64,000 nucleotides of DNA from Thiorhodospira sibirica ATCC 700588. Lineage in GTDB: Bacteria; Pseudomonadota; Gammaproteobacteria; Ectothiorhodospirales; Ectothiorhodospiraceae. A program made the translations under genes and the position numbers. Below are positions 1 to 16,013 of this stretch, in pieces; the stretch's first letter is position 1, and each line of letters opens with the position of its first letter. The notes beneath the pieces were generated by a model, which was given only the letters and a program-made list of their open reading frames with translations, did not search any database and was not told the origin of the DNA. The stretch is from positions 1,404,747 through 1,468,746 of the forward strand of contig NZ_MU255056.1 of the NCBI RefSeq assembly GCF_000227725.2, read 5' to 3'.

Positions 1-169
1 AGGGTTTAGCCTGAATGGCATCCCCAAGATAGGCGTCGACATCGAACCTGCGCTGCCCGCTGGCAGTTCGGTAAGTGGCGATCCGCCCTTCATCGGCATA
101 TTTTCGAAGTGTGTTTGCATGGAGTCCGAGTATTTTAGCGGCTTCTCTGGATGGAACATACCTGGGCAT
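1..169 (-). CDS. tnpA: IS607-family TnpA, N-terminal part (runs off the left edge)
   Basis: The reverse strand from an ATG at 169 encodes about 56 residues beginning MPRYVPSREAAKILGLHANT and continuing through a SGQRRFDVDAYL stretch. This is the MerR-like DNA-binding head typical of IS607-family serine recombinases. In that family the catalytic serine domain follows the head, and it would lie beyond the window edge. The family cuts and joins DNA through a phosphoserine intermediate and moves the element without a fixed terminal repeat. The gene reads away from rnfG, so the element's left end lies between this start codon and about base 234. Whether the recombinase is complete cannot be judged. 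The head alone could in principle be a MerR/excisionase-like regulator, but the fit to IS607 heads is close. Confidence 0.85.
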   Translation of the reverse strand, partial: MPRYVPSREAAKILGLHANTLRKYADEGRIATYRTASGQRRFDVDAYLGDAIQAKP

Positions 170-234
170 GTGTGCTCCGCGTTTACTTAAGAATGTAAGC
201 AAAAGTTAGTATACTAAAACCTAGATGTCAACTC
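1..234 (-). mobile_element. IS607-family insertion element, left end
   Basis: The stretch upstream of tnpA (170-234) is AT-rich and carries the palindrome ttagtatactaa (205-216), a plausible recombinase-binding site. Read on the minus strand, the 40 bases from GAG at 234 inward match one end of the three ~298-bp repeats of this window at 27 of 40 ungapped positions. That match places the element boundary at about 234. The boundary lies inside the reading frame of rnfG, whose last six residues (ELTSRF) and stop codon are then supplied by the element. The right end and any tnpB are outside the window. Confidence 0.7.
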
Positions 235-1041
235 GTGAGCGGGTTCAGGGGGCAGCGTGTCAGATTCTGCCGCAGGCATATTCACCATTCCCGGCGGACC
301 GGGCACAATCTCTGCGGGAACGGGCTCATGTACCGGCGGCACAACGGCAAACAGTGGCCACTGATCGACCAGTTGGGGCAAGACGGTTGCCGCGCTGTCG
401 TTGAGCATACGCCCGATGGCATTGGCAGAGATGGTGGCTCCGCTGATGCCGTCAATCTGCCAGGGGTGTTCCTTGGTATTGGGACGTACCGTGACGATGG
501 CATTGGCCAGACGCTCCCGGGCGAGATCCAGGCGCGCATCCAGGGCCTCAAAATTGGCTAGAAAGCGCGCATCGGTTTCGATTTTATCGCCCAGCCCTGG
601 GGTTTCCTTGCTCTCCAGTACCTTGATGCCGATGATGCACTGGCACTGCGGGTCATAGCCATACAGCACCCGGATGATGTCGGCATAGCCGCGTGCTGCC
701 GCTTCCAGGGCAACGCCCTTAAACTGCCCCTCGGCATCATAACCGGCATAAATGCGCCGTGCCCCGCTGGGTACCGCCCCCTCCAGCACCGCCACACCAT
801 CGCTGCCGAGCACAAAATCATAGCGCTGGGTGGCCCCCGGAATCACTTGCAATACGGCGGCTTCCAGCGCCAGACGCTGGTTTTCCACAATATAGGGGCG
901 GGTCAGCTCTACCACGCTGACCACCAAGAGCCCGGAAAACAGGGCAATCAAGCCCAGGGTGGCAATCAGCCTGCTGCTGGCGGTAGGGCTGGAGGCAGCC
1001 AGTGGGGCTTGTGGGGTTGAGGTCGTCGTATCGGAGCTCAT
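214..1041 (-). CDS. rnfG: Rnf electron transport complex subunit G
   Basis: This is the membrane-anchored, periplasm-facing flavoprotein subunit of the Rnf complex, which passes electrons between ferredoxin and NAD while pumping Na+ or H+. One membrane segment lies at residues ~26-46. The FMN_bind motif DGISGATISANAI (S200-G-A-T203) carries the threonine that binds FMN covalently. At 275 residues it is longer than E. coli RsxG (about 206); the excess is a Pro/Glu-rich tail after residue ~225. Its start overlaps the rnfD stop by four bases (ATGA), so the two are translationally coupled. The final residues ELTSRF and the stop appear to come from the IS607 left end, so the native C terminus has been replaced. 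In other genomes rnfE normally follows; here the element separates the gene from whatever lies beyond. Confidence 0.93.
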   Translation of the reverse strand: MSSDTTTSTPQAPLAASSPTASSRLIATLGLIALFSGLLVVSVVELTRPYIVENQRLALEAAVLQVIPGATQRYDFVLGSDGVAVLEGAVPSGARRIYAGYDAEGQFKGVALEAAARGYADIIRVLYGYDPQCQCIIGIKVLESKETPGLGDKIETDARFLANFEALDARLDLARERLANAIVTVRPNTKEHPWQIDGISGATISANAIGRMLNDSAATVLPQLVDQWPLFAVVPPVHEPVPAEIVPGPPGMVNMPAAESDTLPPEPAHELTSRF

Positions 1042-2135
1042 GCCCCCTCCTTGCCAGGGGCGGCTGGGCGGCGGTCTTTGGGTTTAAGGCGCTGGCGCAA
1101 CGCGCTCAACGCATCGCGCAGACGCGGCGGCGGGCGCTTGCCGTAGGGGCGCGGCTGGGTCAGGTGATCAATCAACGGTGAGGCGGCATTGCCCAATAAA
1201 ATGGCATACATGATGCCCTCCGGCAGTCCACCAAACAGGCGGATGATCACCGTGAGAAAGCCGATCAGCAGGCCATAAATCCACACCCCCCAGGGCGTCA
1301 CCGGTGAGGCGACCATATCGCTGGCCATGAAAAAGGCCCCGAGCATCAAGCCGCCGGATAACAAGACAAACCACGGCGAGGGGTAATAGGCCGGGTCCAG
1401 CAGATAAAATACGCCAGCGGTCAGAAAGGCCCCGCCCAGCACCGCTGCGGGCAGACGCCAGTTAATCAACCGCCGCACCACCAGATACATGCCGCACAGA
1501 AAAATCAACAGTGCCGAGGTTTCACCCACCGAGCCGGTGGTCAGCCCCAGGAGCAGATCCGTGGTTTCGGTAAACATCCCTTCAAATTTCCACTGCGCCA
1601 GCGGGGTTGCCCCGGTGTAGGCGTCCACCGATGGCGGGGTGGTAAAGGGCATGGTCAGGGTTGAGGGCAAGACCTCGGTAAAACGATCCGGATGACCGGG
1701 CACCGTCCAGGTGGAAATCGCCCCCGGAAAGGCCGCCTGGGCAAAGGCCCGCCCGACCAGCGCCGGGTTGAAGGCATTAAAGCCCATGCCACCGAACAGC
1801 ACTTTCCCCAGGCTCATGCCGATAAAGGCCGAAACCGCCGCCATCCACAAGGGAAAAGCCGGTGGCAGGGTCAGCGCCAGAAGAATGCCGGTGATGATGG
1901 CGCTGTAATCCGACAGGGAATTTTCGCGCCGCCCAAGACGGTTAAACAGGTGTTCAGTGGCCACGCAGGTGAGCGTGGTGGTCAGAATCAACAGCAGCGC
2001 GCTCAGCCCGAAGTGATAGATCGAAAAGGCGCAGATCGGCAGCAGGGCATACACCACGTTGCGCATGATGTGCTCAACACTGCCCGCTTGCTTGAGATGC
2101 GGCGAGGTTTTTAGTTCGATGCGTAAAGGTTTCAC
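1038..2135 (-). CDS. rnfD: Rnf electron transport complex subunit D
   Basis: This integral membrane subunit of the Rnf pump, 365 residues, is related to NqrB. About nine or ten hydrophobic segments are visible, starting at residue ~28. The motif DAYTGATPLA (T174-G-A-T177) is the site at which FMN is attached through a phosphoester bond in RnfD/NqrB. A Pro/Lys/Arg-rich cytoplasmic tail closes the protein. The start codon is GTG at 2135 with only a weak upstream Shine-Dalgarno, and a 102-base gap separates it from the rnfC stop. It overlaps rnfG by four bases. Translation may depend on coupling or on a modest ribosome site. The identification is firm. Confidence 0.95.
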   Translation of the reverse strand: MKPLRIELKTSPHLKQAGSVEHIMRNVVYALLPICAFSIYHFGLSALLLILTTTLTCVATEHLFNRLGRRENSLSDYSAIITGILLALTLPPAFPLWMAAVSAFIGMSLGKVLFGGMGFNAFNPALVGRAFAQAAFPGAISTWTVPGHPDRFTEVLPSTLTMPFTTPPSVDAYTGATPLAQWKFEGMFTETTDLLLGLTTGSVGETSALLIFLCGMYLVVRRLINWRLPAAVLGGAFLTAGVFYLLDPAYYPSPWFVLLSGGLMLGAFFMASDMVASPVTPWGVWIYGLLIGFLTVIIRLFGGLPEGIMYAILLGNAASPLIDHLTQPRPYGKRPPPRLRDALSALRQRLKPKDRRPAAPGKEGA

Positions 2136-2237: not shown

Positions 2238-3584
2238 TTACAGCAAGCGCTCGCGGTTGACCGATTTGGCAATCCGGAAATACTGCACCAGCGGGATATT
2301 CGAGGGGCAGACATAGCTGCAGCAGCCGCATTCAAAGCAGTCATGAAGATGAAAACGCGCCTGCATCATCGCATATTCGCGTTTAACCGCCAGGCGGCCC
2401 AGCTCGCAGGGGTTGAGATTGACCGGACAGGCTTCCAGGCAGCGTCCACAGCGAATGCACGGATGTGTCTTGCCTGCCGGTTTGCTTTGCGTGGCCAGTT
2501 CGGGCAAGACAATCACCCCCGAGACGCCTTTGGTCACCGGAACATCCAACGAGGCCACGGTATTGCCCATCATCGGTCCGCCGAGAATGATATGGCTGGC
2601 ATCCCCGGCATAGCCGACCTGTTCGAGCAGATAGCGCAGCGGGGTGCCGATGGGTACCCGATAATTGCCGGGCTTTTTGACCCCCGGCCCGGCGACGGTT
2701 ACCACGCGCTCAATGATCCCCTGACCGTTGGGCAACAACTCGCCCATCTGGCTTAAGGTACTAACGTTATTGACCACCACGCCGATCTGATAGGGATACC
2801 CCCCGGAGGGCACCTCGCGCTTTAACAGCGCCTTGATCAGCAGTTTTTCCGAGCCTTGCGGATATTTGGTGCGTACCGTCTGCACGCTGATCGGGTCATG
2901 GGGTGACAGGCAGGCACGCAGCGCTGCTACGGCATCGAGCTTGTTATCTTCCACCCCAATCACGGCGCGCTGGGCCTTGAGCGCCCGCATCGCCAGGCGG
3001 ATGCCCAGCAACAGGGTCGCGGTGTGTTCCAGCATGATGCGGTGATCTGCGGTCAGATATGGCTCACATTCGCAGCCATTCACCACCAGGGTATCAATGG
3101 GATGGCCGGCCGGAACCTCCAGCTTTTTGTGGGTGGGAAAGGCCGCCCCACCGAGTCCCACTAATCCGGCGGCCTGTACCGCCTGAATGATCCCGGCGCT
3201 GGAGAGGCTGTTGACATCACGCGGCGTACCCCAGCGCACCACCTGGCTATCGGCGGCGAGGGTACGGATCACAATGGCCTCGCTTTTGGGGCCACGCGCC
3301 GTGGGCATTAACTGGATGCCCTCAACGGTGCCGGTGACCGGGGCATGCATCGCTACCGACAGATCTCCGTTAGCCACCGCAATGGGTTGGCCGCGCACCA
3401 CTTCCTGCTGGGGGCGTACCAAGGGAATGGCCGGTTCGCCAAAATGCTGCTGCAAGGGGATGATCATGCGCGGCGCAAAGGGTAGCCGACGAATCGCCTG
3501 ATCACGGGTTGCCTCCTTGAACTCCGGCGGATGTACGCCGTGCGGGAAGGTCAAGCTGCTCAGAAAAGAAAATAATCGGGTCAT
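2238..3584 (-). CDS. rnfC: Rnf electron transport complex subunit C
   Basis: This peripheral cytoplasmic subunit of Rnf, 448 residues, contains the NADH/FMN site and two 4Fe-4S clusters. The N-terminal RnfC barrel is followed by the glycine-rich GLVGLGGAAFPTHKK stretch (residues ~140-154), the NGCECEPYLTADH segment (~169-181), an SLBB-like region, and two cluster motifs: CIRCGRCLEACP from C376 and CFECGCCSYVCP from C416. It lacks the long repetitive C-terminal tail of E. coli RsxC (740 residues) and so is the short form seen in many anaerobes. The ATG at 3584 follows the oxidoreductase stop by 154 bases; that gap holds a shortened palindromic repeat. Confidence 0.95.
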   Translation of the reverse strand: MTRLFSFLSSLTFPHGVHPPEFKEATRDQAIRRLPFAPRMIIPLQQHFGEPAIPLVRPQQEVVRGQPIAVANGDLSVAMHAPVTGTVEGIQLMPTARGPKSEAIVIRTLAADSQVVRWGTPRDVNSLSSAGIIQAVQAAGLVGLGGAAFPTHKKLEVPAGHPIDTLVVNGCECEPYLTADHRIMLEHTATLLLGIRLAMRALKAQRAVIGVEDNKLDAVAALRACLSPHDPISVQTVRTKYPQGSEKLLIKALLKREVPSGGYPYQIGVVVNNVSTLSQMGELLPNGQGIIERVVTVAGPGVKKPGNYRVPIGTPLRYLLEQVGYAGDASHIILGGPMMGNTVASLDVPVTKGVSGVIVLPELATQSKPAGKTHPCIRCGRCLEACPVNLNPCELGRLAVKREYAMMQARFHLHDCFECGCCSYVCPSNIPLVQYFRIAKSVNRERLL

Positions 3585-3738: not shown

Positions 3739-6700
3739 TTACCACTTGGTACCGGGGTGGATACAGCTCACCGGACAACGATCCGCCGCCCGCTTGATCT
3801 GCTCATAGCTGGCGCCCTTGGGATTGATCACGACAATCTGCTGCTTGTTGTCGTAGGCAAAGACCCCAGGCGCAACCTCCAGGCAATCGCTACAGGCATT
3901 GCATTCCGGACTTTCCACCCACACCGCTTCATATTCCACCGCAGTGGCCGCAGCGCTCACGCTGGGGCTGGGGGCTACTGAAGCCGCGGGGATGGCCTGT
4001 TTGACTTTTCCCGGTTGCAATAAGGCGCCAAGCTCGGAACTGCTGCCGCTGGCCAGGGCCAACAGCGAGCTGGTCAGTTGCTGGGCCATATCCAGGCGGG
4101 TTTGCTGAGCCACCGCCTCGACATCCACCTGTGGCTGATCCAGCCCCAACAGCCCCTTGAGCTGACGCCAGAAGGCTTGACGCTCTTCGGTGGAGCGCAC
4201 CAGTTCCTCAGACACCAGTACCCGCCCTAGCTGGTTTTGCTTGTCCACCACCCAGATGAAGGGGAAACGGCCAACGCGCTCGTCTTCAGACAGCCCCAAA
4301 AAGTCTGCCAGCGGGATCATGCGATCATCCCAGGTTTCCACCGGGGCCTTCTTGAAGTGCTTGCGGAAACGCCCTTCGGTGACGGCAAAGTCGGCAAAGG
4401 TCATGGGCACTTTCAGCTTGGCCTCGGTGCCATCCGCCTCCTGATAGTTCAGGGTGTACACCGGCCAATCCTTATCCAGCGAAGGATTGCCTTCCAGGGT
4501 GCAACACTCGCGGAAGGTCACGCCCTTGTCGGGGTTATAGCGGAACAAGGGATAGGCGCGGGACTCCACCGCCATACGCGACTGATTGAAGGCCACATCA
4601 TCGCCCACGCCGTGCTCTGGCGGGCAGACCGCATAGACATTAAACAAGGCCGGACGGCGGCTGTTCAGCCCTTCGATATAGCTTTCCAGCAGATGCCCGA
4701 CGTTGGAGATAGCGCCCTGCATCACATAGCTGGTGCGATGTGCCAGCCCGATCAGGCTGATCTCCTTGCGCACTTCTTCCTTGCCCTTCCAGGCCACCCC
4801 ATAGGGGGCCATATCCGAGACCTGACTGATAAAGCCCGAGGTACAGGCCTGGCCACCGGTATTGGAATACACCTGGGTATCCAGCACCATCACCTTGATC
4901 GGCATTCCCGACATCAGGGCCCGTGAGAGATTCTGGAAACCGATGTCATACATCGCGCCGTCACCGCCCACACTGACCACCGGCGGACACAGCAGGAATT
5001 CCTCATCGGAGAACTGCTCCCAGTTAAACTGGGCAAAGAAGGGCTCATGCTCTGCCGGGTTGTAGCGCCCACTCAGCTCAAGCTCAGCCATGCGCACTGC
5101 CTTGAAGCCCTCGGCCATCTTGGCCATGTGTCCTTCAAAAATCCCCATCGCCACCGACGGGCTGTCCTGGAACAAATGGCTGCTCCACGGGAAGGGATAA
5201 GGGTTGAAGGGGAAGGTGCCGCCCCATACCGAGGTACAGCCGGTGGCATTGATCACGCCCATGTCCGAACGGCCACGCCCGGTGGGGCCTTCACGATAGC
5301 GCCATTGCAGATCCTTGAGCGCGCTCAATACGCCGGTGATCCACTGCAACCAGTCCGGATCGACCGGCTCGGCGGCCTGGTTCTTTTCCAGCTCCGTCGT
5401 CAGTCGCGCCAGGGTCAGATCCTTGTCGGCATGTTCCTTGATCGCCTGGGTCAGCGCCTGGGTATCGGACAGGTTCATGCCATTGGCCAGCTTCAGGCGG
5501 ATATGCTGCTCCAGCCGCTCAATGAGCTGTGCCAGCTGGCTCAGATGCTTTTCCACCCGCGACTGCATCAGTGCCGTGACGGTGGCGGTGAACAGGTGCA
5601 TGGCGGTTTTTTCACCGCAGCCCAGACAGGCGCTATCCCCGCAGTTCATCGAGCTGTACGCGCGCTTGTCCAGCAACAGGGTTTCCAGCGCGCCGATGCC
5701 CTGATCCAGGTCTTTGACGCGGATATAATCCGGGCGCGTGGTGGGCAGATCCTGCCAGAAGGCCCAATCCGTGCGCAGTTTTTCCACCCGCTCCGGGGTC
5801 TGCTCGACCACTTCGAGGGCATCAAATTCACAGGCACTGACGCATTCCATACAGCCTTTGCAGGTGTAGGGATTTACTGTCAGCGAAAACAGACCGCCGC
5901 TGCCCTTGGCGCGTTTTTCCAGGGCATGGAAATACGGCTTGGCCACGGCAAACTTAAAGCCGCCGAGGTTTTCCTTAAACCAGCCAAATTCGGTTTCCAG
6001 CGCGACCTTGTCTTCACCGGTCAAGGGACTGTCCGCCAAGACCTGCGCCATCGCCAGCTCAAGCTCGGTGTTGACATCGGCATGTTGGCCGCCTTCGACC
6101 AGGGCCGGACGCAGACGTTTTTCCAAATCACGCACCGCCCGACGCAGCTGGCGGGTGACCCGGCCGGTGTTTTCGATGCGACGGATAACCGTCTCAAAGA
6201 CCTCGCCGACGGTGTTGACCAGGCCGGGAATGGCGCTGTCTGGGCAGATCGCGTAGCAATCACCGCAGGCAGTACACTTGTCGGCCAGCCAGTTGGGATA
6301 TTCAAAGCGAATCTGGGTCATATCGCGATACACGCCGGTGGAGGCAGGAATCAGCGACAAGCCCATGAAGGGGTCTACCAGATTGTCATTGCCCTGGCCC
6401 GACAGATAAAAGCTGCCGGTTTGCTCCCAGAAACGGTGAATATCGGACAGCGGAGCCTGCGACTGTGGCAGACGCTTGAGCATGGTCGGCAGGGCCGGTG
6501 CACTGATCGCCGCCGTAATCAGGGCGGTGGTATTGAGGGGCTTGTCAACGATTTCGACCGTTTCCTCAAAGCCCCGACGCACCACCCGCAGATTGTCCTC
6601 GACCACACGCGCGCCCTTGGCTCCGAATTTTTCCTGCAACTGGTCTTCAATCGCCCTGAACAGGCTGTCTTCATCCAGATTCTTTTTCGCCATCACTGGT

Positions 6701-8679
6701 GAGGTGGCAAAAAACGCGCCCTGGAAGGCAATGCCCTGCATCCGGAATTGCAGGTCAGAATCGGAAGCCTCATCACGGGCAATGCGGAAAGCGTCGATAT
6801 AAAAGACGCGGATTGCGTTGTCCACAATGTAGCGCTGCGCACTCGGTGGAAAGCTCGCCCACACCGCCTCGGGGGATTCCAGCGATGCCTGGATGACAAA
6901 CACCCCGCCTTTGGACAGACCGGCCAAGGGATTGGAATGCTCAAAGACATTGGGATCGGGGGAGAGCACTACATCAACATGCTTTAATTCGCTGTTGACG
7001 CGGATCGGTTCGGGGGCGGCGGCGAGATAATAGGTGGTGGGCTGGCCCTTTTTCTCAGAGCCATATTTGGGGTTAGCCTTGATGTGATAATCCAGCAGAT
7101 CAAACAAGGTCATGGCCAGATTTTTGCCGGTGGTCATGGCGCCCCAGCCACCGACCGAATGCAGGCGCAAGGCAATGGTGCCCTCCGGCATCAGCGGTGG
7201 ATTTTCCGAGCCGCGCACCGCCATCTCACGAATATGCGGATAAGCCTCCAGCAGGGTCTGCTGTTGCAATTCCTGCTTGGGCGAGGCGGGGGTATCACGG
7301 ATAAATTCCACCGACAGATAGAAAAAGCGCCGCTTGGCCCCATCGTCGAGCATATTTTCCACTGCACCGATCAAGGCCTCGGCCTGCATATCGCGTGAGC
7401 CCAGACCATATACCCCGGAATACAGACGCGGCATGTCGCTCATGCGATAACTGGCATACTCCGGATACGGCAGTGCCGAGTGGCCGTTTTGCTTGGCAGT
7501 GCGATCTTTGCTCTCAGCCGCAATGCCGTTTTCCAGACACTTGCTCAATGTGGCCCGTGTCTCGCGCATCAAGGGCAGATCCTCGGCCAGCGGCTGATCG
7601 GTGCGCTCCAGTACCGCAACGCCCTTGCGCCCTTTGAGCGCCGCGCCCAGCAAATCCCCCGGGAAGGGACGGAACATGGTCAGACCCACCACGCCGACCT
7701 TGAGCTTGCGGGTGGCACGCAGATGATCCGCCACCGCCTCTGCCATGGCAATCATGCTGCCTTGACCGACAATCACATACTCTGCATCGTCCATCAGGTA
7801 CTGCTGGATGCGCCCATAGCGCCGTCCGGTGAGTTCGTAATACTCCTGCGCGCACTGGTCAAACAGGGCCTTGATATGCGCAAAGAAATACGGACGCTGG
7901 GCCGCCACCTGCTGCATGTAGGCATCCTGGTTTTGCAAAGACCCCGACAGCATCGGATTATCCACGTCCCAGATGGCGGGAATACGGCGGCGCTTCTCGC
8001 CATAGAGCATCTTTTGCGCCGGTGTCGGGGTGTCAATCAGGTCATCCGGACGGCCCAGAAACTGCGCAATGAGCTCGCGTTCCGGCAACGACACCGACTC
8101 CACCAAATGGGTGGTTAAAAAGCCATCCTGCCCCACAATGCCGGGATTAAGCGCCAGTTCGGCGACCTTGTGCGCAATCAGGTTGAGATCCGCCGCTTCC
8201 TGGGCATTTTTCGCCATCACCTGGAAAAAGCCGGTGTCATCGACGCAGTGATAATCATCATGGCTGGCGTGGACGTTAAGCGAGGCCTTGGTAATCGCCC
8301 GGCAGCCGATATTGAGGATATAGGGCAGGCGCTTGCCGGTGGCGGCATACAGCGACTCATGCATGAAGGCCACGCCCTGGGCCGAGGAGAAGTTGATCGC
8401 CCGCAGGCCGGTCATCGCCAGTCCGGCCGTCACCGCCGCTGCGGCATGTTCGGATTCCGGCTCAATAAATACCAGCGAACGTCCGGAGATATTGATATGA
8501 CCGCGTGAGACCTCCTCTGCCCACAGCTCCCCCATCTGCGTCGATGGAGTAATCGGATACGCACCAGCCGCATCCGAGGCCTCACGTTCGCAATGAATGA
8601 TGGCGGTATTGCCATCGACTGCCGCACGAATGCCGGTATATTTAAAAGTCTTTTGCAATGGAGTGCGCTTTTGCAACAT
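3739..8679 (-). CDS. nifJ: Pyruvate (2-oxoacid):ferredoxin oxidoreductase, giant form with fused C-terminal ferredoxin
   Basis: Oxidises pyruvate and CoA to acetyl-CoA and CO2 with reduction of ferredoxin, using thiamine diphosphate. At 1646 residues it is far longer than common single-chain enzymes (~1170-1200). Order of parts: alpha-type N-terminal domain (~10-430, with AYPITPSTQMGE and SSAQGVAFMHE); gamma-type domain (~495-735, HSVGGWGAMTTGKN); a two-cluster ferredoxin domain with CTACGDCYAICP from C802 and CKGCMECVSAC from C940, separated by an unusually long coiled-coil-like insert of ~127 residues; the TPP domain (CGDSACLGCGEK ~1013, GGDGAMYDIGFQN ~1238, NTGGQ ~1273) with a second helical insert (~1035-1130); a Pro/Ser/Ala linker; and a terminal ferredoxin module (C1593-x2-C-x2-C, then C1635). 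The ATG at 8679 has GGAG nine bases upstream. It sits between rnfB and rnfC on the same strand, which suggests direct coupling to Rnf. The substrate could be another 2-oxoacid. Confidence 0.9.
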   Translation of the reverse strand: MLQKRTPLQKTFKYTGIRAAVDGNTAIIHCEREASDAAGAYPITPSTQMGELWAEEVSRGHINISGRSLVFIEPESEHAAAAVTAGLAMTGLRAINFSSAQGVAFMHESLYAATGKRLPYILNIGCRAITKASLNVHASHDDYHCVDDTGFFQVMAKNAQEAADLNLIAHKVAELALNPGIVGQDGFLTTHLVESVSLPERELIAQFLGRPDDLIDTPTPAQKMLYGEKRRRIPAIWDVDNPMLSGSLQNQDAYMQQVAAQRPYFFAHIKALFDQCAQEYYELTGRRYGRIQQYLMDDAEYVIVGQGSMIAMAEAVADHLRATRKLKVGVVGLTMFRPFPGDLLGAALKGRKGVAVLERTDQPLAEDLPLMRETRATLSKCLENGIAAESKDRTAKQNGHSALPYPEYASYRMSDMPRLYSGVYGLGSRDMQAEALIGAVENMLDDGAKRRFFYLSVEFIRDTPASPKQELQQQTLLEAYPHIREMAVRGSENPPLMPEGTIALRLHSVGGWGAMTTGKNLAMTLFDLLDYHIKANPKYGSEKKGQPTTYYLAAAPEPIRVNSELKHVDVVLSPDPNVFEHSNPLAGLSKGGVFVIQASLESPEAVWASFPPSAQRYIVDNAIRVFYIDAFRIARDEASDSDLQFRMQGIAFQGAFFATSPVMAKKNLDEDSLFRAIEDQLQEKFGAKGARVVEDNLRVVRRGFEETVEIVDKPLNTTALITAAISAPALPTMLKRLPQSQAPLSDIHRFWEQTGSFYLSGQGNDNLVDPFMGLSLIPASTGVYRDMTQIRFEYPNWLADKCTACGDCYAICPDSAIPGLVNTVGEVFETVIRRIENTGRVTRQLRRAVRDLEKRLRPALVEGGQHADVNTELELAMAQVLADSPLTGEDKVALETEFGWFKENLGGFKFAVAKPYFHALEKRAKGSGGLFSLTVNPYTCKGCMECVSACEFDALEVVEQTPERVEKLRTDWAFWQDLPTTRPDYIRVKDLDQGIGALETLLLDKRAYSSMNCGDSACLGCGEKTAMHLFTATVTALMQSRVEKHLSQLAQLIERLEQHIRLKLANGMNLSDTQALTQAIKEHADKDLTLARLTTELEKNQAAEPVDPDWLQWITGVLSALKDLQWRYREGPTGRGRSDMGVINATGCTSVWGGTFPFNPYPFPWSSHLFQDSPSVAMGIFEGHMAKMAEGFKAVRMAELELSGRYNPAEHEPFFAQFNWEQFSDEEFLLCPPVVSVGGDGAMYDIGFQNLSRALMSGMPIKVMVLDTQVYSNTGGQACTSGFISQVSDMAPYGVAWKGKEEVRKEISLIGLAHRTSYVMQGAISNVGHLLESYIEGLNSRRPALFNVYAVCPPEHGVGDDVAFNQSRMAVESRAYPLFRYNPDKGVTFRECCTLEGNPSLDKDWPVYTLNYQEADGTEAKLKVPMTFADFAVTEGRFRKHFKKAPVETWDDRMIPLADFLGLSEDERVGRFPFIWVVDKQNQLGRVLVSEELVRSTEERQAFWRQLKGLLGLDQPQVDVEAVAQQTRLDMAQQLTSSLLALASGSSSELGALLQPGKVKQAIPAASVAPSPSVSAAATAVEYEAVWVESPECNACSDCLEVAPGVFAYDNKQQIVVINPKGASYEQIKRAADRCPVSCIHPGTKW

Positions 8680-8819
8680 GTCGTTGATCTCCGGCCCTGT
8701 GGAGGGCTTATTTTGGTTTTAAGCGGCTCATCCCAAAGCCGGTTTTAGTGTAGAACAGGCCGCAGCACGCCTTGGGTGTGGCACGCTGTGGCAACATCGC
8801 AAACAACTCGCCGCTGTAC

Positions 8820-9713
8820 TCAGGCACGCGGTAAAGGCTCCATACGCGGCAAAGGTTCTTTGCGGGTCACTTTCCGGGCGCGCACCCCTTTGTCAGGACG
8901 CGCACCTTCCAGCCAGACAATGGCGCCGGTGGGGCAGCGTTGTATCGCCACCCGCGAGGCCAGTGCATTCTTGCCATAATCAATGACCGCGAGATTGGCC
9001 TGCATGGTAATCAGGCCCTCCGGGGCATCAACGGCACATCGTCCACAGGCAGTACATACCACCTCGCAATGTGCCTGCGCCTCGTCCTGGGGATCCTGAT
9101 TTTTGCAGTTGATCCACAGACGGTGGCTTTCTGGCTGGATTGAAAACAAATCTTTGGGGCAGATATCCACACAATCGCCACAGGCGGTGCATTTGTCGAT
9201 GTCCACCTTGGGCAGGCCGTAGCGATCCAGGGTGATGGCATCAAAGCTGCACACCACCTCACAATCGCCCAGCCCCAGACAGCCCCAGGTACAGCCTTTG
9301 CCACCGCCAGAGACCAGCGCGGCAGCGCGACAGGATTTCAATCCCTTATACAGCGCCCGCGTCGCCGCCACATGCGAGCCTCCCGCGCAGGCCAGACGGG
9401 CCAGCTGACGCTCCCGCCGGGTGAGTTTTACCCCCAGCAAATCGGCAATCGTCCGGTTCATCTCCACCGCATTGACGGTGCAGCGCGAGGGTTCTGTGCT
9501 GCCTTGAATCAGGGCCTCGGCAAAAGGCCGACAGCCCGGTGAACCGCAGGCCCCGCAGTTGGCCTTGGGGAGCAAATCTTCGATCTGGTCAATGCGCGGG
9601 TCTTCATAGACATACAAACGCCGGTTAGCCAGGGCCAGCACCATCGCCAGCATGACCCCCAGCAAGGCCATAAAGCCGCTGGCCAGGGCAATGTTTAACA
9701 GGGAATCAGACAT
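8820..9713 (-). CDS. rnfB: Rnf complex subunit B, iron-sulfur protein (anaerobe-type, with altered C-terminal cluster motifs)
   Basis: Membrane-anchored polyferredoxin thought to accept electrons from soluble ferredoxin. The start is set at ATG 9713, giving 297 residues that begin with a membrane helix (~6-30); a longer frame to 9899 adds a non-conserved leader. A PF04060-type cluster motif C53-x2-C56-x4-C61-x16-C78 follows, then GCLGLGDCEVVC (C141-C155) and CTACGDCVDICP (C175-C185). The next motif, CTACGRCAVDAP (220-231), has Ala where the fourth Cys is expected. The last (KNALASRVAIQRCP, 248-261) keeps only one Cys. The extended layout resembles RnfB of Clostridia and Bacteroidetes rather than the short E. 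coli RsxB. It is the first rnf gene seen in this direction, 140 bases before the oxidoreductase, and rnfA does not precede it. Confidence 0.9.
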   Translation of the reverse strand: MSDSLLNIALASGFMALLGVMLAMVLALANRRLYVYEDPRIDQIEDLLPKANCGACGSPGCRPFAEALIQGSTEPSRCTVNAVEMNRTIADLLGVKLTRRERQLARLACAGGSHVAATRALYKGLKSCRAAALVSGGGKGCTWGCLGLGDCEVVCSFDAITLDRYGLPKVDIDKCTACGDCVDICPKDLFSIQPESHRLWINCKNQDPQDEAQAHCEVVCTACGRCAVDAPEGLITMQANLAVIDYGKNALASRVAIQRCPTGAIVWLEGARPDKGVRARKVTRKEPLPRMEPLPRA

Positions 9714-10140
9714 AAATTTTGCCCTTGCAAAAAATACAGGGAGGTATTTTGTCCCCCAGACCGTTGACAGCGCGCTGTAATGCGCCATCCCGTCTCGAGG
9801 GCGTATTAAAAAGACCCGCACTGTGAAGCGATGTGTGCCGTGATAAATCCGTTTTATAGTGCAGTGCATCATTTTTATTGATCGAAGTCTATGCGTCAAT
9901 AAAGCATTTGATCCAACAATTATTTCAATCCTTAATATTGAATTTAATAATAGTTAAATATTCGCAGGTGTTCACACAGCGCACCGATTCACGCGTGAAA
10001 AGCTTGTATTGCGCGCCTAAAAGGCGGTAATGTGCGTCTTGCAATTTGCGTGTTATAAAAACGAAAACAAACCCCTGTGCCGGTACGCAGGCAGCAGCAG
10101 GTTTGTCTCAACCTAACCCCATTGCAGGAGAAGCTTGATA
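9714..10140. promoter_or_regulatory. Divergent intergenic region between rnfB and the TRAP transporter
   Basis: This 427-base non-coding stretch lies between two divergently read operons, so promoters for both should lie here. The segment 9860-9965 is markedly AT-rich compared with the neighbouring genes and is the likeliest promoter zone. I see no clear operator palindrome. AGGAG at about 10126-10130 serves the transporter start at 10141. Confidence 0.5.
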
Positions 10141-11139
10141 ATGATGCAAAGATTTCTACGCGGCCTATTGATTGGCCTTGCCGCCAGCGCACTGGCTGTC
10201 GGCAGTGTCCAGGCCCAGGATCGCACCGGCTGGCCCAACTCGGCCAAGATCGGCACCGCTTCCCAGGGCGGCACCTTTTTTATTTACGGGGCTGGCTGGG
10301 GGGGGCTGGTACAGCAGTCTACCGGTGTGAACATGACCGCCGAGGTCACCGGCGGCCCGGCGCAGAATATGGTGCTGGTGCATACCGGCGAGCTGCAGTT
10401 TGGCATGACCACGATGGGCCCGGCCTATGCGGCCTGGACGGGGACGCTGGAAGTAGCCCCTGGTCTGAAAACCGATAATGTGCGGGCAATGTTTCCGATG
10501 TACATGACGCCCTTTCAGGTCGTCGCGCTGAAAAGCTCCGGAATCGCCTCCATGGCCGATTTAAACGGCAAGCGGGTTGGCGTTGGGCCACAGGGTGGCA
10601 CTGCCAGTGTCTACTGGCCGAAGTTTTTCCAGGATCTGGGTATCCGGGTACGCCCCCAGTTTGGTGGGGCCTCTGACCAGGTCGGCCAGGTGCAAGATGG
10701 TCTGATTGATGCCTTTGCCTTTGCCGCCGGAGTACCGATCTCCGCCTTCAGTCAGATTGAGGCACAGCAGGCAGTTAACATCTTCTCCTTTAGCGAAGAA
10801 GAACTGCAGACCATTCTGAGCAAAAATCCCTCGGTGAGTCGCTTTGATGTGCCCGCTGGCACCTACCGCAGCGTGGCCGAGCCGCAAAGCACGGTCGCCA
10901 TGTGGAATTTCACCGTCGCCAACAAGAATATGCCGGCCGACTTCGTGTATGAAGTCATGAAGACGGTGCTGGATAACAACGAGCAGATGCTGCGCGTTCA
11001 CAGTTCGGCCAGCGAAACCCTGAGCCAGAACATGGTGAACAACACCTTCATGTGGTTCCATCCGGGTGCTGTTCGCTATTACAAGGAAAAAGGCATTGAG
11101 GTGCCAGAGCACCTGATTCCGCCGGAATATCAAGACTGA
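10141..11139 (+). CDS. TAXI-family TRAP transporter solute-binding protein
   Basis: Periplasmic binding protein of a tripartite ATP-independent periplasmic transporter, 332 residues. A Sec signal peptide spans residues 1-~24 (hydrophobic LIGLAASALAVGS, then VQAQD). The mature part opens with IGTASQGGTFFIYGAGWGG, the hallmark of the TAXI (TRAP-associated extracytoplasmic immunogenic) family, followed by the conserved GPAQNMVLVHTGELQFG segment. Members of this family often bind dicarboxylates or amino acids such as glutamate, but the ligand cannot be read from sequence. The start ATG at 10141 follows an AGGAG. The gene is followed by a strong hairpin and then by the fused permease, so the binding protein is probably made in excess. 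Confidence 0.9.
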   Translation: MMQRFLRGLLIGLAASALAVGSVQAQDRTGWPNSAKIGTASQGGTFFIYGAGWGGLVQQSTGVNMTAEVTGGPAQNMVLVHTGELQFGMTTMGPAYAAWTGTLEVAPGLKTDNVRAMFPMYMTPFQVVALKSSGIASMADLNGKRVGVGPQGGTASVYWPKFFQDLGIRVRPQFGGASDQVGQVQDGLIDAFAFAAGVPISAFSQIEAQQAVNIFSFSEEELQTILSKNPSVSRFDVPAGTYRSVAEPQSTVAMWNFTVANKNMPADFVYEVMKTVLDNNEQMLRVHSSASETLSQNMVNNTFMWFHPGAVRYYKEKGIEVPEHLIPPEYQD

Positions 11140-11148
11140 TCCATCCCC

Positions 11149-11195
11149 GCCAACGCGCTTTGCAAGCTCCCCCTTCAAGGCGCGTTGGCATTTTT
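11149..11195 (+). terminator. Intra-operon hairpin with T tract after the TRAP binding protein
   Basis: GCCAACGCGC (11149-11158) pairs perfectly with GCGCGTTGGC (11180-11189) and is followed by atttttg, giving a rho-independent-type structure. It sits between the binding-protein gene and its permease, so it probably acts as a partial terminator or mRNA-stabilising hairpin that favours the binding protein. Confidence 0.75.
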
Positions 11196-11270
11196 GTCCC
11201 TGACTGACCAGCCGCCTGCAAGGCATTGCGGGTCTGCTTATTTCCCAGAACCTGATGAAGGCGCAAACAG

Positions 11271-13424
11271 ATGACGAGTTCATCCGATAGCGGACGCATT
11301 GAAATCTCAGGGATTGACAAAGAAGAAACCTACACCGCACAACGTCAATTGACACACTGGCAGGGCGCACTGTTATTCGCCGTCTGCGTGGCCTTTACCC
11401 TGTTTCATCTCGGGGTCCTCAATATTGTCCCGCTGGAAACCTGGACCTTCCGCATTATCCACGTCGCTGGAGCCTTGTTTATCGGCTTTGCCCTGGTGGC
11501 GGTCTGCGCCCCGGTACCCCGCAGCCTTGCCCGTTCAGTGTTTTGGCTGGAACTTGGGCCATTGCTGATCGGCGTGGCCCTGATGCTATACGCCACAGGG
11601 CTGATCGTCAGCGCCTATGTGATGCGCCATCTCTATGCACTGCACAACCCCCCGGCCTGGATGTTTGAGCACTTTGGCCCGGTATTATGCGCCGCAGTGG
11701 TCATTGCCATCCTCTCGGCCTGGACCTTTCGCCCACGCAACCACCGCATCGGCTGGTATGACTGGATTTTAATGATCGCCAGCCTGTGCGTCGCCGCCTA
11801 TCTGATCTTCAACCTCAATCTGCTGCAATTTCGCGCTGGCGTCATGCCCACCAGTGCCGATTTCTGGGTCAGCGTCGCCGGCATCCTGCTGATTTTGGAG
11901 CTGACCCGACGGGTGGCCGGTCTGGCCCTGGTCATCATTGCCGCCGTATTCATCCTCTATGGCTTTGTGGGACCTTACCTGCCCGGCTTTCTGGAACACA
12001 GCGGCTATCGCATGGAGCGCTTTTTTACCTACCTCTACACCGTCAACGGCATTCTCGGCCCGACCACCGCCGTCTCTTCCACCTACATCGTCTTGTTCAT
12101 CACCTTCGCCGCCTTCCTGCAAGCCTCGCGCGTAGGCGATTATTTTGTGAATTTCGCCTTTGCCGTGGCGGGACGGGCGCGGGGTGGTCCGGCCAAAGTC
12201 GCGGTATTTGCCAGTGGCCTGATGGGCATGATCAATGGCACCTCCGCAGGCAATGTGGTGGCCACCGGCTCGCTAACCATTCCCTTGATGAAGCGCGTCG
12301 GCTACAAACCGCGCAGCGCCGGGGCCATTGAAGCCGCCGCCTCAACCGGTGGTCAGATCATGCCGCCAGTGATGGGCGCCGGGGCCTTTATCATGGCGGA
12401 AGTCACCGGCATTCCCTACACCGAATTGATCATCGCCGCCCTGATTCCAGCCATTTTGTATTTCGCTTCGGTCTATTTCATGGTGGACATGGAGGCCTCG
12501 CGCACCGGAATGCGCGGCCTGCCCGCCAATGAATTGCCCAAAGTCGCCGAACTGATGCGCCAGATCTTTTTGTTCTTGCCGATCATCATCCTCATCGGCG
12601 CTTTGTTCATGGGCTACTCGGTGATTCGCGCCGGAACCCTGGCCCTGGTCAGTGCGGCCGTGGTCAGCTGGTTTACCCCCTATCGCATGGGGCTTAGAAG
12701 CACGCTGGGCGCACTCAACCAGGCGGCGCGCATGTCCATTCAGCTCATCGCCGTGTGCGCCTGCGCAGGCATTATCGTCGGCGTCATCAGCCTTACCGGC
12801 GTGGGATTGCGCTTCTCCTCCATGCTGCTGACGGTTGCGGCCAACAGCCAGTTGCTGGCCTTGCTGTTTGCGATGGCCATCTCGATACTGCTCGGCATGG
12901 GCATGCCCACCACCGCCGCCTACGCCGTCGCCGCCTCCGTCGTTGCACCCGGCCTAATCCACATGGGCGTAGAACCGCTGGTCGCCCACTTCTTCGTCTT
13001 CTATTACGCCGTGATCTCCGCCATCACCCCGCCAGTAGCCCTCGCCGCCTATGCGGGTGCCGCCATTGCCGGGGCAGAACCGATGCGCACCTCGATCACC
13101 GCCTTCAAGATCGGCCTGGCAGCATTTATCGTGCCCTTCATGTTCTTCTACCATCCCTCGCTGCTGATGATCGGAGAATGGAGCATCATCGGACTCAACC
13201 TCGCCACCGCCTTACTGGGCGTGTTCATGCTCGCCGCTGCAGCACAAGGCTGGTTCTTCGGCAAAGCCGCCGTGCTGACCCGAATCTTATTATTCGGCGC
13301 GGCCTTGCTCATGATCTCCGGCGACCTGCTCACCGACGCCCTGGGCATCGGGCTTGGCGCGCTGCTACTGCTTTCTCAACGCAAATCCAACCCCCGCGTC
13401 CCCGACACGGTAAAATCCCCCTAA
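11271..13424 (+). CDS. TRAP transporter permease, fused small (4TM) and large (12TM) subunits
   Basis: A 717-residue integral membrane protein that uses an ion gradient to import the ligand delivered by the TAXI binding protein just upstream. The N-terminal part (~25-190) contains the membrane helices corresponding to the small DctQ-type subunit. The rest is the DctM-type large subunit with the conserved segments MINGTSAGNVVATGS, AAASTGGQIMPPVMGAGAF and LLGMGMPTTAAYAVA. Fused permeases are the norm for TAXI systems. It starts 131 bases after the binding-protein gene. The downstream region at 13425 is a cluster of palindromic repeats, which may terminate or stabilise the transcript. Confidence 0.93.
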   Translation: MTSSSDSGRIEISGIDKEETYTAQRQLTHWQGALLFAVCVAFTLFHLGVLNIVPLETWTFRIIHVAGALFIGFALVAVCAPVPRSLARSVFWLELGPLLIGVALMLYATGLIVSAYVMRHLYALHNPPAWMFEHFGPVLCAAVVIAILSAWTFRPRNHRIGWYDWILMIASLCVAAYLIFNLNLLQFRAGVMPTSADFWVSVAGILLILELTRRVAGLALVIIAAVFILYGFVGPYLPGFLEHSGYRMERFFTYLYTVNGILGPTTAVSSTYIVLFITFAAFLQASRVGDYFVNFAFAVAGRARGGPAKVAVFASGLMGMINGTSAGNVVATGSLTIPLMKRVGYKPRSAGAIEAAASTGGQIMPPVMGAGAFIMAEVTGIPYTELIIAALIPAILYFASVYFMVDMEASRTGMRGLPANELPKVAELMRQIFLFLPIIILIGALFMGYSVIRAGTLALVSAAVVSWFTPYRMGLRSTLGALNQAARMSIQLIAVCACAGIIVGVISLTGVGLRFSSMLLTVAANSQLLALLFAMAISILLGMGMPTTAAYAVAASVVAPGLIHMGVEPLVAHFFVFYYAVISAITPPVALAAYAGAAIAGAEPMRTSITAFKIGLAAFIVPFMFFYHPSLLMIGEWSIIGLNLATALLGVFMLAAAAQGWFFGKAAVLTRILLFGAALLMISGDLLTDALGIGLGALLLLSQRKSNPRVPDTVKSP

Positions 13425-15182: not shown

Positions 15183-16013
15183 AGAACCTGTTCAAAGTCT
15201 CTTAAGAAGTCTCTTAAGCAAGATGCCCAGGAAGGCCAGGTGAATAAATGGTAAGCTCGTGTTGAGCGTGCGCTCAGCGTTTTTCCAAAGTCGCCGGTGC
15301 TTTTCCAGCCAGGCGAAGCTGCGCTCTACCACCCAGCGCGTGGGGATGACCTTGAAGGTATGCAATTCGCTGCGCTTGGCAATTTGTACGGTCACGTGCT
15401 CGCCCAGGGTCTTTTGCACCGGCTCAGCAAAGGGTCGGCCGGGATAGCCACCGTCGGCCAGCACGCTTGGCACACAACCCAACCCCGTCTTGCAGCGCGC
15501 CAAGGCTTGCACGGCGCCTTGGCGATCTGTGACCTCGGCTGTTGTCACCGCCACGGCATGGGGTAGACCTTGTGTATCCACCGCCACAGGGCGTTTGATG
15601 CCTGAAACCTTCTTGCCCGCATCATAACCTTTGTGTTCTGCGGTGTCTGCGTTCTTGACGCTTTGTGCGTCCACGATTAACCGCGTGGGACTGGCATTGC
15701 GCCCCTGTTTTTTGCGGGCTGCGCTCACCTGATTTTTTTAAAGCCTGCTCCAGCAGGCTGCCGCCTTCGCGCGGCTCACTCCAGATCGTGAAAGAGTGAT
15801 GCACTGTGCGCCATTTCGGAGCGTCGCTTGGCAAGGCTCGCCACTGACAACCCGTACGTAGCAGATACAGCACCGCACAGAACACGTCCTTCTTGCGACC
15901 ACTTTCCAGTAATCCACGGATATGCTCGAACGGCTCTCGACGGAGGTCACTGGGATAGGTATGTCTCATCTTGCTATTGTCGGCTATTTTTAGAAGACTT
16001 TGAACAGGTTCTT
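15182..16013 (-). mobile_element. IS5-family element (IS427-like), complete with inverted repeats
   Basis: The terminal inverted repeat GAACCTGTTCAAAGTCT is seen at 15184-15200 and, reversed, ends at 16011. Length is about 830 bp. The transposase is in two overlapping frames. The left flank is the interior of an ISNCY transposase and the right flank is the stop codon of the DUF2835 gene; the flanks show no matching target duplication. This suggests that the sequence formerly on one side was lost after insertion. Confidence 0.85.
15192..15969 (-). CDS. IS5-family transposase, two overlapping frames joined by frameshifting
   Basis: The first frame (15969 down to 15622) begins MRHTYPSDLRREPFEHI and contains the DUF4096-type head with RTGCQWRALPSD. 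The second (15728 down to 15192) contains the DDE core with VDAQSVKNAD, VLADGGYPG and RWVVERSFAWLEKHRRL. A run of seven A on the coding strand (15733-15739) lies where the frames overlap. Reading into the second frame there needs a +1 (or -2) shift, as is common in this IS group by programmed frameshifting or slippage. All expected parts are present, so the enzyme may be active. It could account for rearrangements around this island. Confidence 0.85.

Follow-up and report, generated by a model that had tools for sequence, protein, structure and literature searches.

In a 64,000-nucleotide stretch of the Thiorhodospira sibirica ATCC 700588 genome (contig NZ_MU255056.1, positions 1,404,747 to 1,468,746; hereafter the window), a giant homologue of pyruvate:ferredoxin oxidoreductase (PFOR) with a ferredoxin fused to its C-terminus is encoded between rnfB and rnfC of an rnf operon. 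Both the gene order and the protein architecture recur in dozens of genomes and are not chance. We regard it as likely that the locus specifies a dedicated, reversible PFOR-Rnf electron-transfer unit, in which the tethered ferredoxin docks on RnfB and which runs mainly in the reductive direction in this host. Together with a sister protein that appears to be catalytically dead, the arrangement suggests that electrons pass between Rnf and ferredoxin-dependent carboxylases by a dedicated and perhaps direct route. The gene order was known once before, and PFOR and Rnf are of known kinds; their direct coupling is put forward here as a well-motivated hypothesis.

A giant PFOR within the rnf operon

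The complete order on one strand was rnfB-PFOR-rnfC-D-G-(TnpB)-E-A followed by ppsA, the gene for phosphoenolpyruvate (PEP) synthase, and RnfA, B, C, D, E and G are all encoded at the operon (Table 1). An earlier note, made from the letters of this DNA, had described the order rnfB-PFOR-rnfC-rnfD-rnfG on a single strand, and this was borne out by the open reading frame (ORF) map and the family matches. The same six subunits form the Rnf complexes of A. woodii, C. tetanomorphum and A. vinelandii, from which the present operon differs in its order (B-PFOR-C-D-G-E-A) and its long-type RnfB. The cysteines of this RnfB map to an FeS domain, a pair of 4Fe-4S motifs and, at the C-terminus, a CxxCxxC...C motif of single-cluster-like type, and the protein has 297 residues compared with 180 for the canonical RnfB of the same genome. 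That genome also carries a separate canonical rnfABCDGE set and split rnfA-B and rnfG-E pairs elsewhere.

The PFOR superfamily domains POR_N, PFOR_II, POR, Fer4 and TPP_C were found in order. Domain order, the thiamine pyrophosphate (TPP) site, the pyruvate-site residues and the ligands of three 4Fe-4S clusters are common to the giant protein and the canonical single-chain PFORs (NifJ; D. africanus 1b0p, Moorella thermoacetica 6cin). Across 34 members of the giant family, the TPP motif GDG...N and the ligands of the proximal, medial and distal clusters were invariant, as were Thr44, Glu77 and Arg127, which align to the pyruvate site of the D. africanus PFOR. The roles of the equivalent Thr, Glu and Arg in that site are taken here to be those established for the D. 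africanus enzyme.

At approximately 450 residues more than the canonical length (~1200 residues), the giant PFOR differs by two helical inserts and the tethered ferredoxin. The first insert lies between the two cluster motifs, where the earlier note had counted approximately 127 inserted residues; this figure holds for the total spacing (C812-C940, compared with 45-46 in 17 canonical PFORs), but the net insert is only about 80. The corresponding spacing was 123-129 residues in the sister family described below and ~61 in split relatives. The second insert, which the note had placed as helical in the TPP domain, was confirmed, with 126 residues between Cys1021 and Cys1148 compared with 24 in canonical PFORs and 124-127 in the sister family. 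In a structure model of residues 451-1646 (pLDDT 84.5) both inserts were helical, the second forming long helices, and the ferredoxin folded as a separate domain past a disordered linker, contrary to the idea that it could be an internal element of the CoA or TPP domain. The best solved-structure matches of the model were the PFORs 6cin and 1b0p, with modest TM-scores (about 0.5). Split alpha-gamma/beta relatives (L079-L081), the closest catalytic relatives by local identity, were located away from rnf and without long inserts or ferredoxin, and they served for contrast.

The single-cluster ferredoxin on a Pro/Ser/Ala linker, also proposed earlier, was recovered as a Fer4_13 match (E=1.8e-9) with CxxCxxC...C ligands at Cys 1593/1596/1599/1635. 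It matches D. africanus ferredoxin I (E=8e-11; 1dax/1fxr), a free protein whose four-Cys single 4Fe-4S domain is here covalently tethered. The C-terminus in the window, ending in HPGTKW, appears shorter than in relatives; no hidden frameshift behind it was obvious in three frames, and the four ferredoxin cysteines are present.

We surveyed the best-scoring 80 of at least 582 relatives from a contig scan, many of which are metagenome-assembled genomes whose single assignments may be wrong; gene positions at these loci were set by tblastn. The ferredoxin motif was found in 75 of the 80. Among the five exceptions, two are cut off by the contig edge, two differ slightly in the tail but retain all four cysteines, and the last is the copy of the Solemya velum symbiont (L137), in which a lesion or a sequencing error seems to have shifted the PFOR reading frame within the linker, ahead of the ferredoxin. 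At loci with at least 1 kb of contig, the gene next upstream of the giant PFOR was rnfB in 70/71 and the one next downstream was rnfC in 66/66, and the complete C-D-G-E-A order followed on the 3' side in 45/51. A second sample of 26 whole-genome loci, whose organisms overlap with the first, gave rnfB upstream in 20/21 and rnfC downstream in 21/22. The exceptions in context were L159, which had no rnfB upstream, L062, in which rnfB has moved behind rnfA and an FNR-like gene, and L069, a contig-edge fragment without rnfC downstream. Around canonical ~1200-residue PFORs used as a control, no rnf genes were encountered at any of 20 loci within the 11-17 kb read. The giant form is therefore found essentially only inside rnf operons, and not mainly away from them. 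Pairwise distances of PFOR correlated with those of RnfB, RnfC and RnfD at 0.83, compared with 0.81-0.84 among the Rnf subunits themselves (66 loci). The whole operon thus seems to have moved and evolved together.

Within the order of the host, the giant PFOR was present in 11 of 47 genomes, all within three of five genera. In the class, 97 of 369 genomes had matches at E<=1e-30, mostly canonical PFORs or short subunits, with about 20 of the giant form. The near relatives are in Ectothiorhodospira and Halorhodospira; identity was 75-77% to Ectothiorhodospira-type relatives and 58-66% to other class members. The 80 relatives further comprised Chromatiaceae, Sedimenticola, Rhodocyclales, Gallionellales and Shewanella on the Pseudomonadota side, and Acidobacteriota (Bryobacteraceae), Calditrichota, Verrucomicrobiota/Kiritimatiellae and Hydrogenedentota in other phyla. 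A divergent LysR regulator was noted at 19 of the giant-PFOR loci. On one Calditrichales contig (L161), two rnf operons lie on one strand a few kb apart, and only the second contains the giant PFOR.

The score against TIGR02176, the canonical PFOR equivalog, was 379 bits with a cut-off of 911, and the giant PFOR is a divergent clade outside that equivalog. A score so far under the canonical cut-off could also mean that the enzyme prefers another 2-oxoacid and is not pyruvate-specific. This is improbable, given that the Thr, Glu and Arg matching those of the D. africanus site are invariant, that ppsA, a pyruvate-using gene, adjoins, and that the operons described next use a separate, ordinary 2-oxoacid oxidoreductase. 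From the site residues and the ppsA neighbour, pyruvate would be the substrate.

A sister clade in KOR-rnf operons

A sister giant of about 1290-1600 residues, about 30% identical to the window PFOR, was found in operons of the order korA-korB-P840-rnfB-giant-(sucC-sucD)-rnfC-D-G-E-A (L072-L078, L188-L190), where korA and korB encode ordinary subunits of a 2-oxoacid oxidoreductase (KOR). The core korA-korB-P840-rnfB-giant was present in 10/10 distinct loci examined and rnfC-A in eight; at L078/L192 and L190, rnfC-A is not visible in the stretch covered. Several of the operons have sucCD before rnfC, and L189 has an mdh-like gene behind rnfA. Judged by its residues, the sister giant is a catalytically dead PFOR homologue, having lost Thr44, Glu77 and the GDG/N motif along with every one of the four cysteines of the proximal cluster, with Arg127 surviving in 5/6 sequences. 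The other two clusters retain their full set of eight cysteines (6/6 sequences), and both inserts are kept. P840 (840 residues) corresponds, as a degenerate copy, to the C-terminal half of PFOR (TPP domain) and ends in the same ferredoxin type; at L074 the ORF called for P840 ended early, and the statement on its ferredoxin covers the other loci. A structure model of P840 was of low confidence (pLDDT 57, 5 sequences) and was not used.

In the tree, the dead clade is sister to the window PFOR family, a placement to be taken with caution because of long branches. Several genomes (G393, G212, G263, G386) contain both operons. With the dead giant as query, a phylum search at E<=1e-60 returned the window-type family only, in 3 of 399 genomes.

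The natural reading of these sequences is that KOR took over catalysis and the electron link to Rnf was retained. The dead clade keeps two clusters, both inserts and, on the partner protein, a ferredoxin, but not catalysis; this supports a dedicated electron link and is the strongest indirect evidence that these parts serve Rnf. A wider proposal, which we hold tentatively and at somewhat less than even chances, is that ferredoxin-dependent carboxylases and Rnf form direct supercomplexes, in which PFOR would connect via its RnfB-docked ferredoxin, being powered or drained with no free ferredoxin, and the dead PFOR would act as an Fe-S connector from 2-oxoglutarate:ferredoxin oxidoreductase to Rnf.

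Mechanism, direction and alternative readings

In the proposed mechanism, the TPP site of the PFOR would interconvert pyruvate plus CoA and acetyl-CoA plus CO2, and electrons would run along the PFOR clusters to the C-terminal ferredoxin on its flexible linker. The ferredoxin would swing across to those clusters of the long-type RnfB that accept ferredoxin, making free ferredoxin unnecessary, and the two helical inserts probably aid docking on Rnf. At RnfC, electron exchange with NAD(H) would be coupled to ion flow. RnfB would be a likelier dock than RnfC, since the RnfB C-terminal Fe-S domain is the known acceptor module for cytoplasmic ferredoxin and RnfC is the NAD site (PMC12174285). We infer the physical docking, the RnfB partner, the channelling and the direction.

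The earlier note assumed a pyruvate-driven pump. The reverse, with Rnf driving pyruvate synthesis, is at least as likely, since ppsA adjoins the operon here and in several genomes and the host is a phototroph with its own pyruvate dehydrogenase (PDH). The host genome contains Photo_RC reaction-centre genes, RuBisCO, nifH, PDH and isocitrate lyase, and ppsA was near giant-PFOR operons in 7/51 loci of the first sample and 5/19 of the second. With these observations on ppsA and PDH, and with the proposal of the Kentron authors that, in related sulfur bacteria, a highly expressed PFOR has a carboxylating role (PMC6593406), we lean toward reduction as the main direction in this purple sulfur host. 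NADH and the ion gradient would reduce the tethered ferredoxin via Rnf, and the reduced ferredoxin would drive pyruvate synthase, whose product would feed the adjacent PEP synthase. In phototrophs, the PFOR-Rnf unit is probably often an Rnf-powered pyruvate synthase.

The oxidative alternative has identical anatomy and differs in direction only: PFOR would oxidise pyruvate and the tethered ferredoxin would feed Rnf, yielding NADH and an ion gradient. It was proposed by the authors on the S. velum symbiont (Dmytrenko et al. 2014, PMC4287430), and an FNR-like gene (PetH/BoxA-type) after rnfA in 27/51 loci could add an NADPH output. We consider it the less probable direction, as ppsA (with its regulator in some) adjoins several loci including that of the window, PDH is already present, a phototroph can draw ion-motive force from light, and PFOR has been argued to be a carboxylase in the Kentron relatives.

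Several points weigh against a reductive PFOR-Rnf unit with a docking ferredoxin. The FNR-like gene could drain electrons to NADPH, and with isocitrate lyase in the host genome pyruvate synthase is not the sole route for acetate. The insert sequences are less conserved than the PFOR core, the Solemya symbiont PFOR appears frameshifted ahead of its ferredoxin, and the 80 loci are the best-scoring relatives, with remote members outside the sample. The conservation of the operon could also reflect co-regulation only. The genes would then be neighbours without a physical link, and the fused ferredoxin would be an intramolecular store or a route to any partner, such as nitrogenase. This would be consistent with nifH in the genome and with the spacers of 140 and 154 bp that flank the PFOR gene, which show no tight coupling, and no PFOR-RnfB/C gene fusion was found among the loci examined, the longest PFOR frame in the collected rows being at most 1738 residues. 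We nevertheless judge it unlikely, because PFOR is inserted exactly between rnfB and rnfC across phyla, its distances co-vary with Rnf, and the dead sister clade in rnf operons retains the electron-transfer parts only.

The Solemya velum account noted the PFOR position between rnfB2 and rnfC2 and pyruvate as a possible donor, which agrees with L137 in order and family; in the part of it available, it covers these points and does not mention the protein architecture, the tethered ferredoxin, how general the arrangement is, or the dead paralogue (PMC4287430). In tubeworm symbionts, the available portions of two papers place Rnf in reductive tricarboxylic acid (TCA) cycle clusters and korAB with TCA genes, so that ferredoxin-dependent carboxylases are likewise linked to Rnf in related sulfur oxidisers; these portions describe Hdr-Flx-KorABCD, with no mention of a PFOR-derived dead giant or ferredoxin partner (PMC6315080, PMC11636981). 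A. vinosum has three rnf clusters, and the role of its Rnf complexes was called 'entirely unclear' (PMC3368242). In open-access full texts, with subscription journals outside the scope, no description of the tethered ferredoxin, the generality of the gene order or the dead paralogue was found.

Purple bacteria and sulfur oxidisers that have type-II reaction centres, or no reaction centre, must bring ferredoxin to a sufficiently reduced state for pyruvate or 2-oxoglutarate synthase, and how they do so is unsettled. The PFOR-rnf operon offers a concrete answer that can be tested genetically in genera open to culture (Ectothiorhodospira, Allochromatium, Marichromatium, Thiocapsa, Sedimenticola, Shewanella atlantica), and in the dead sister protein nature has already uncoupled electron delivery from catalysis. 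If the contact is real, the PFOR-Rnf unit would represent a respiratory supercomplex of a new class and could serve directly as a module for CO2 fixation powered by an ion gradient; if the supercomplex proposal is true, ion-motive force could power both of the reductive TCA carboxylations in Calvin-cycle phototrophs and sulfur oxidisers.

Feature coordinates and neighbouring genes

Table 1. Features of the PFOR-rnf locus, in window positions unless another contig is named.
Feature	Position	Strand	Remarks
rnfB, long type	8820..9713	(-)	297 aa, ATG at 9713; PF04060 and Fer4 matches; NCBIfam PRK07118-type, TIGR01944
Giant PFOR homologue with fused ferredoxin	3739..8679	(-)	1646 aa, intact ORF
N-terminal TPP/pyruvate domain POR_N	7888..8580	(-)	Thr44, Glu77, Arg127 conserved
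PFOR core domain II	7540..7785	(-)	PF17147
POR (gamma-type) domain	6565..7152	(-)	PF01558
First 4Fe-4S motif C802-C812	6244..6276	(-)	invariant in giant family, dead sister family and canonical PFOR
Insert 1, between the two cluster motifs	5863..6243	(-)	helical in model
Second 4Fe-4S motif C940-C950	5830..5862	(-)	invariant in giant family, dead sister family and canonical PFOR
Insert 2, TPP domain, between proximal-cluster Cys1021 and Cys1148	5239..5616	(-)	long helices in model
TPP-binding GDG...N motif, beta-type domain	4840..4986	(-)	invariant in giant family; lost in dead sister family
Pro/Ser/Ala-rich linker, residues 1546-1580	3940..4044	(-)	pLDDT about 32-42 at core
Fused single-cluster ferredoxin, residues 1581-1646	3742..3939	(-)	Fer4_13
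rnfC	2238..3584	(-)	TIGR01945 E=1e-149
rnfD	1038..2135	(-)	TIGR01946 E=5.6e-94
rnfG	214..1041	(-)	FMN_bind; TIGR01947 90.5 bits, slightly below cut-off 102
TnpB-type ORF, 5' end	1..159	(-)	inserted between rnfG and rnfE
rnfE, rnfA, intein-bearing ppsA	beyond window, genome contig G000:C4 about 1398060-1403233	same as PFOR	

The TnpB-family gene (IS200/IS605-type RNA-guided nuclease) extends in full over G000:C4 1403259-1404905 (L049:8260-9906) on the PFOR strand, and its insertion may alter expression of rnfE-rnfA-ppsA. The PEP synthase 3' of rnfA (L049:3061-6774, outside the window) reaches 1237 residues from an intein-like insert of ~403 residues, at the site GGRT|C...NN|CHAAI adjoining the catalytic His loop. 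The orphan pairs rnfA-rnfB and rnfG-rnfE are located far apart on G000:C4, at ~74 kb and ~2767 kb (L195, L194), and look like a third rnf set, broken up; the rnfG-rnfE pair adjoins a cation/proton antiporter-like gene. Divergent from rnfB, window positions 10135-13424 (+) contain genes named by eye as a TAXI-type substrate-binding protein and TRAP permease-like genes. At 15192-15969 (-), two overlapping ORFs resemble, by eye, an IS5-family transposase.

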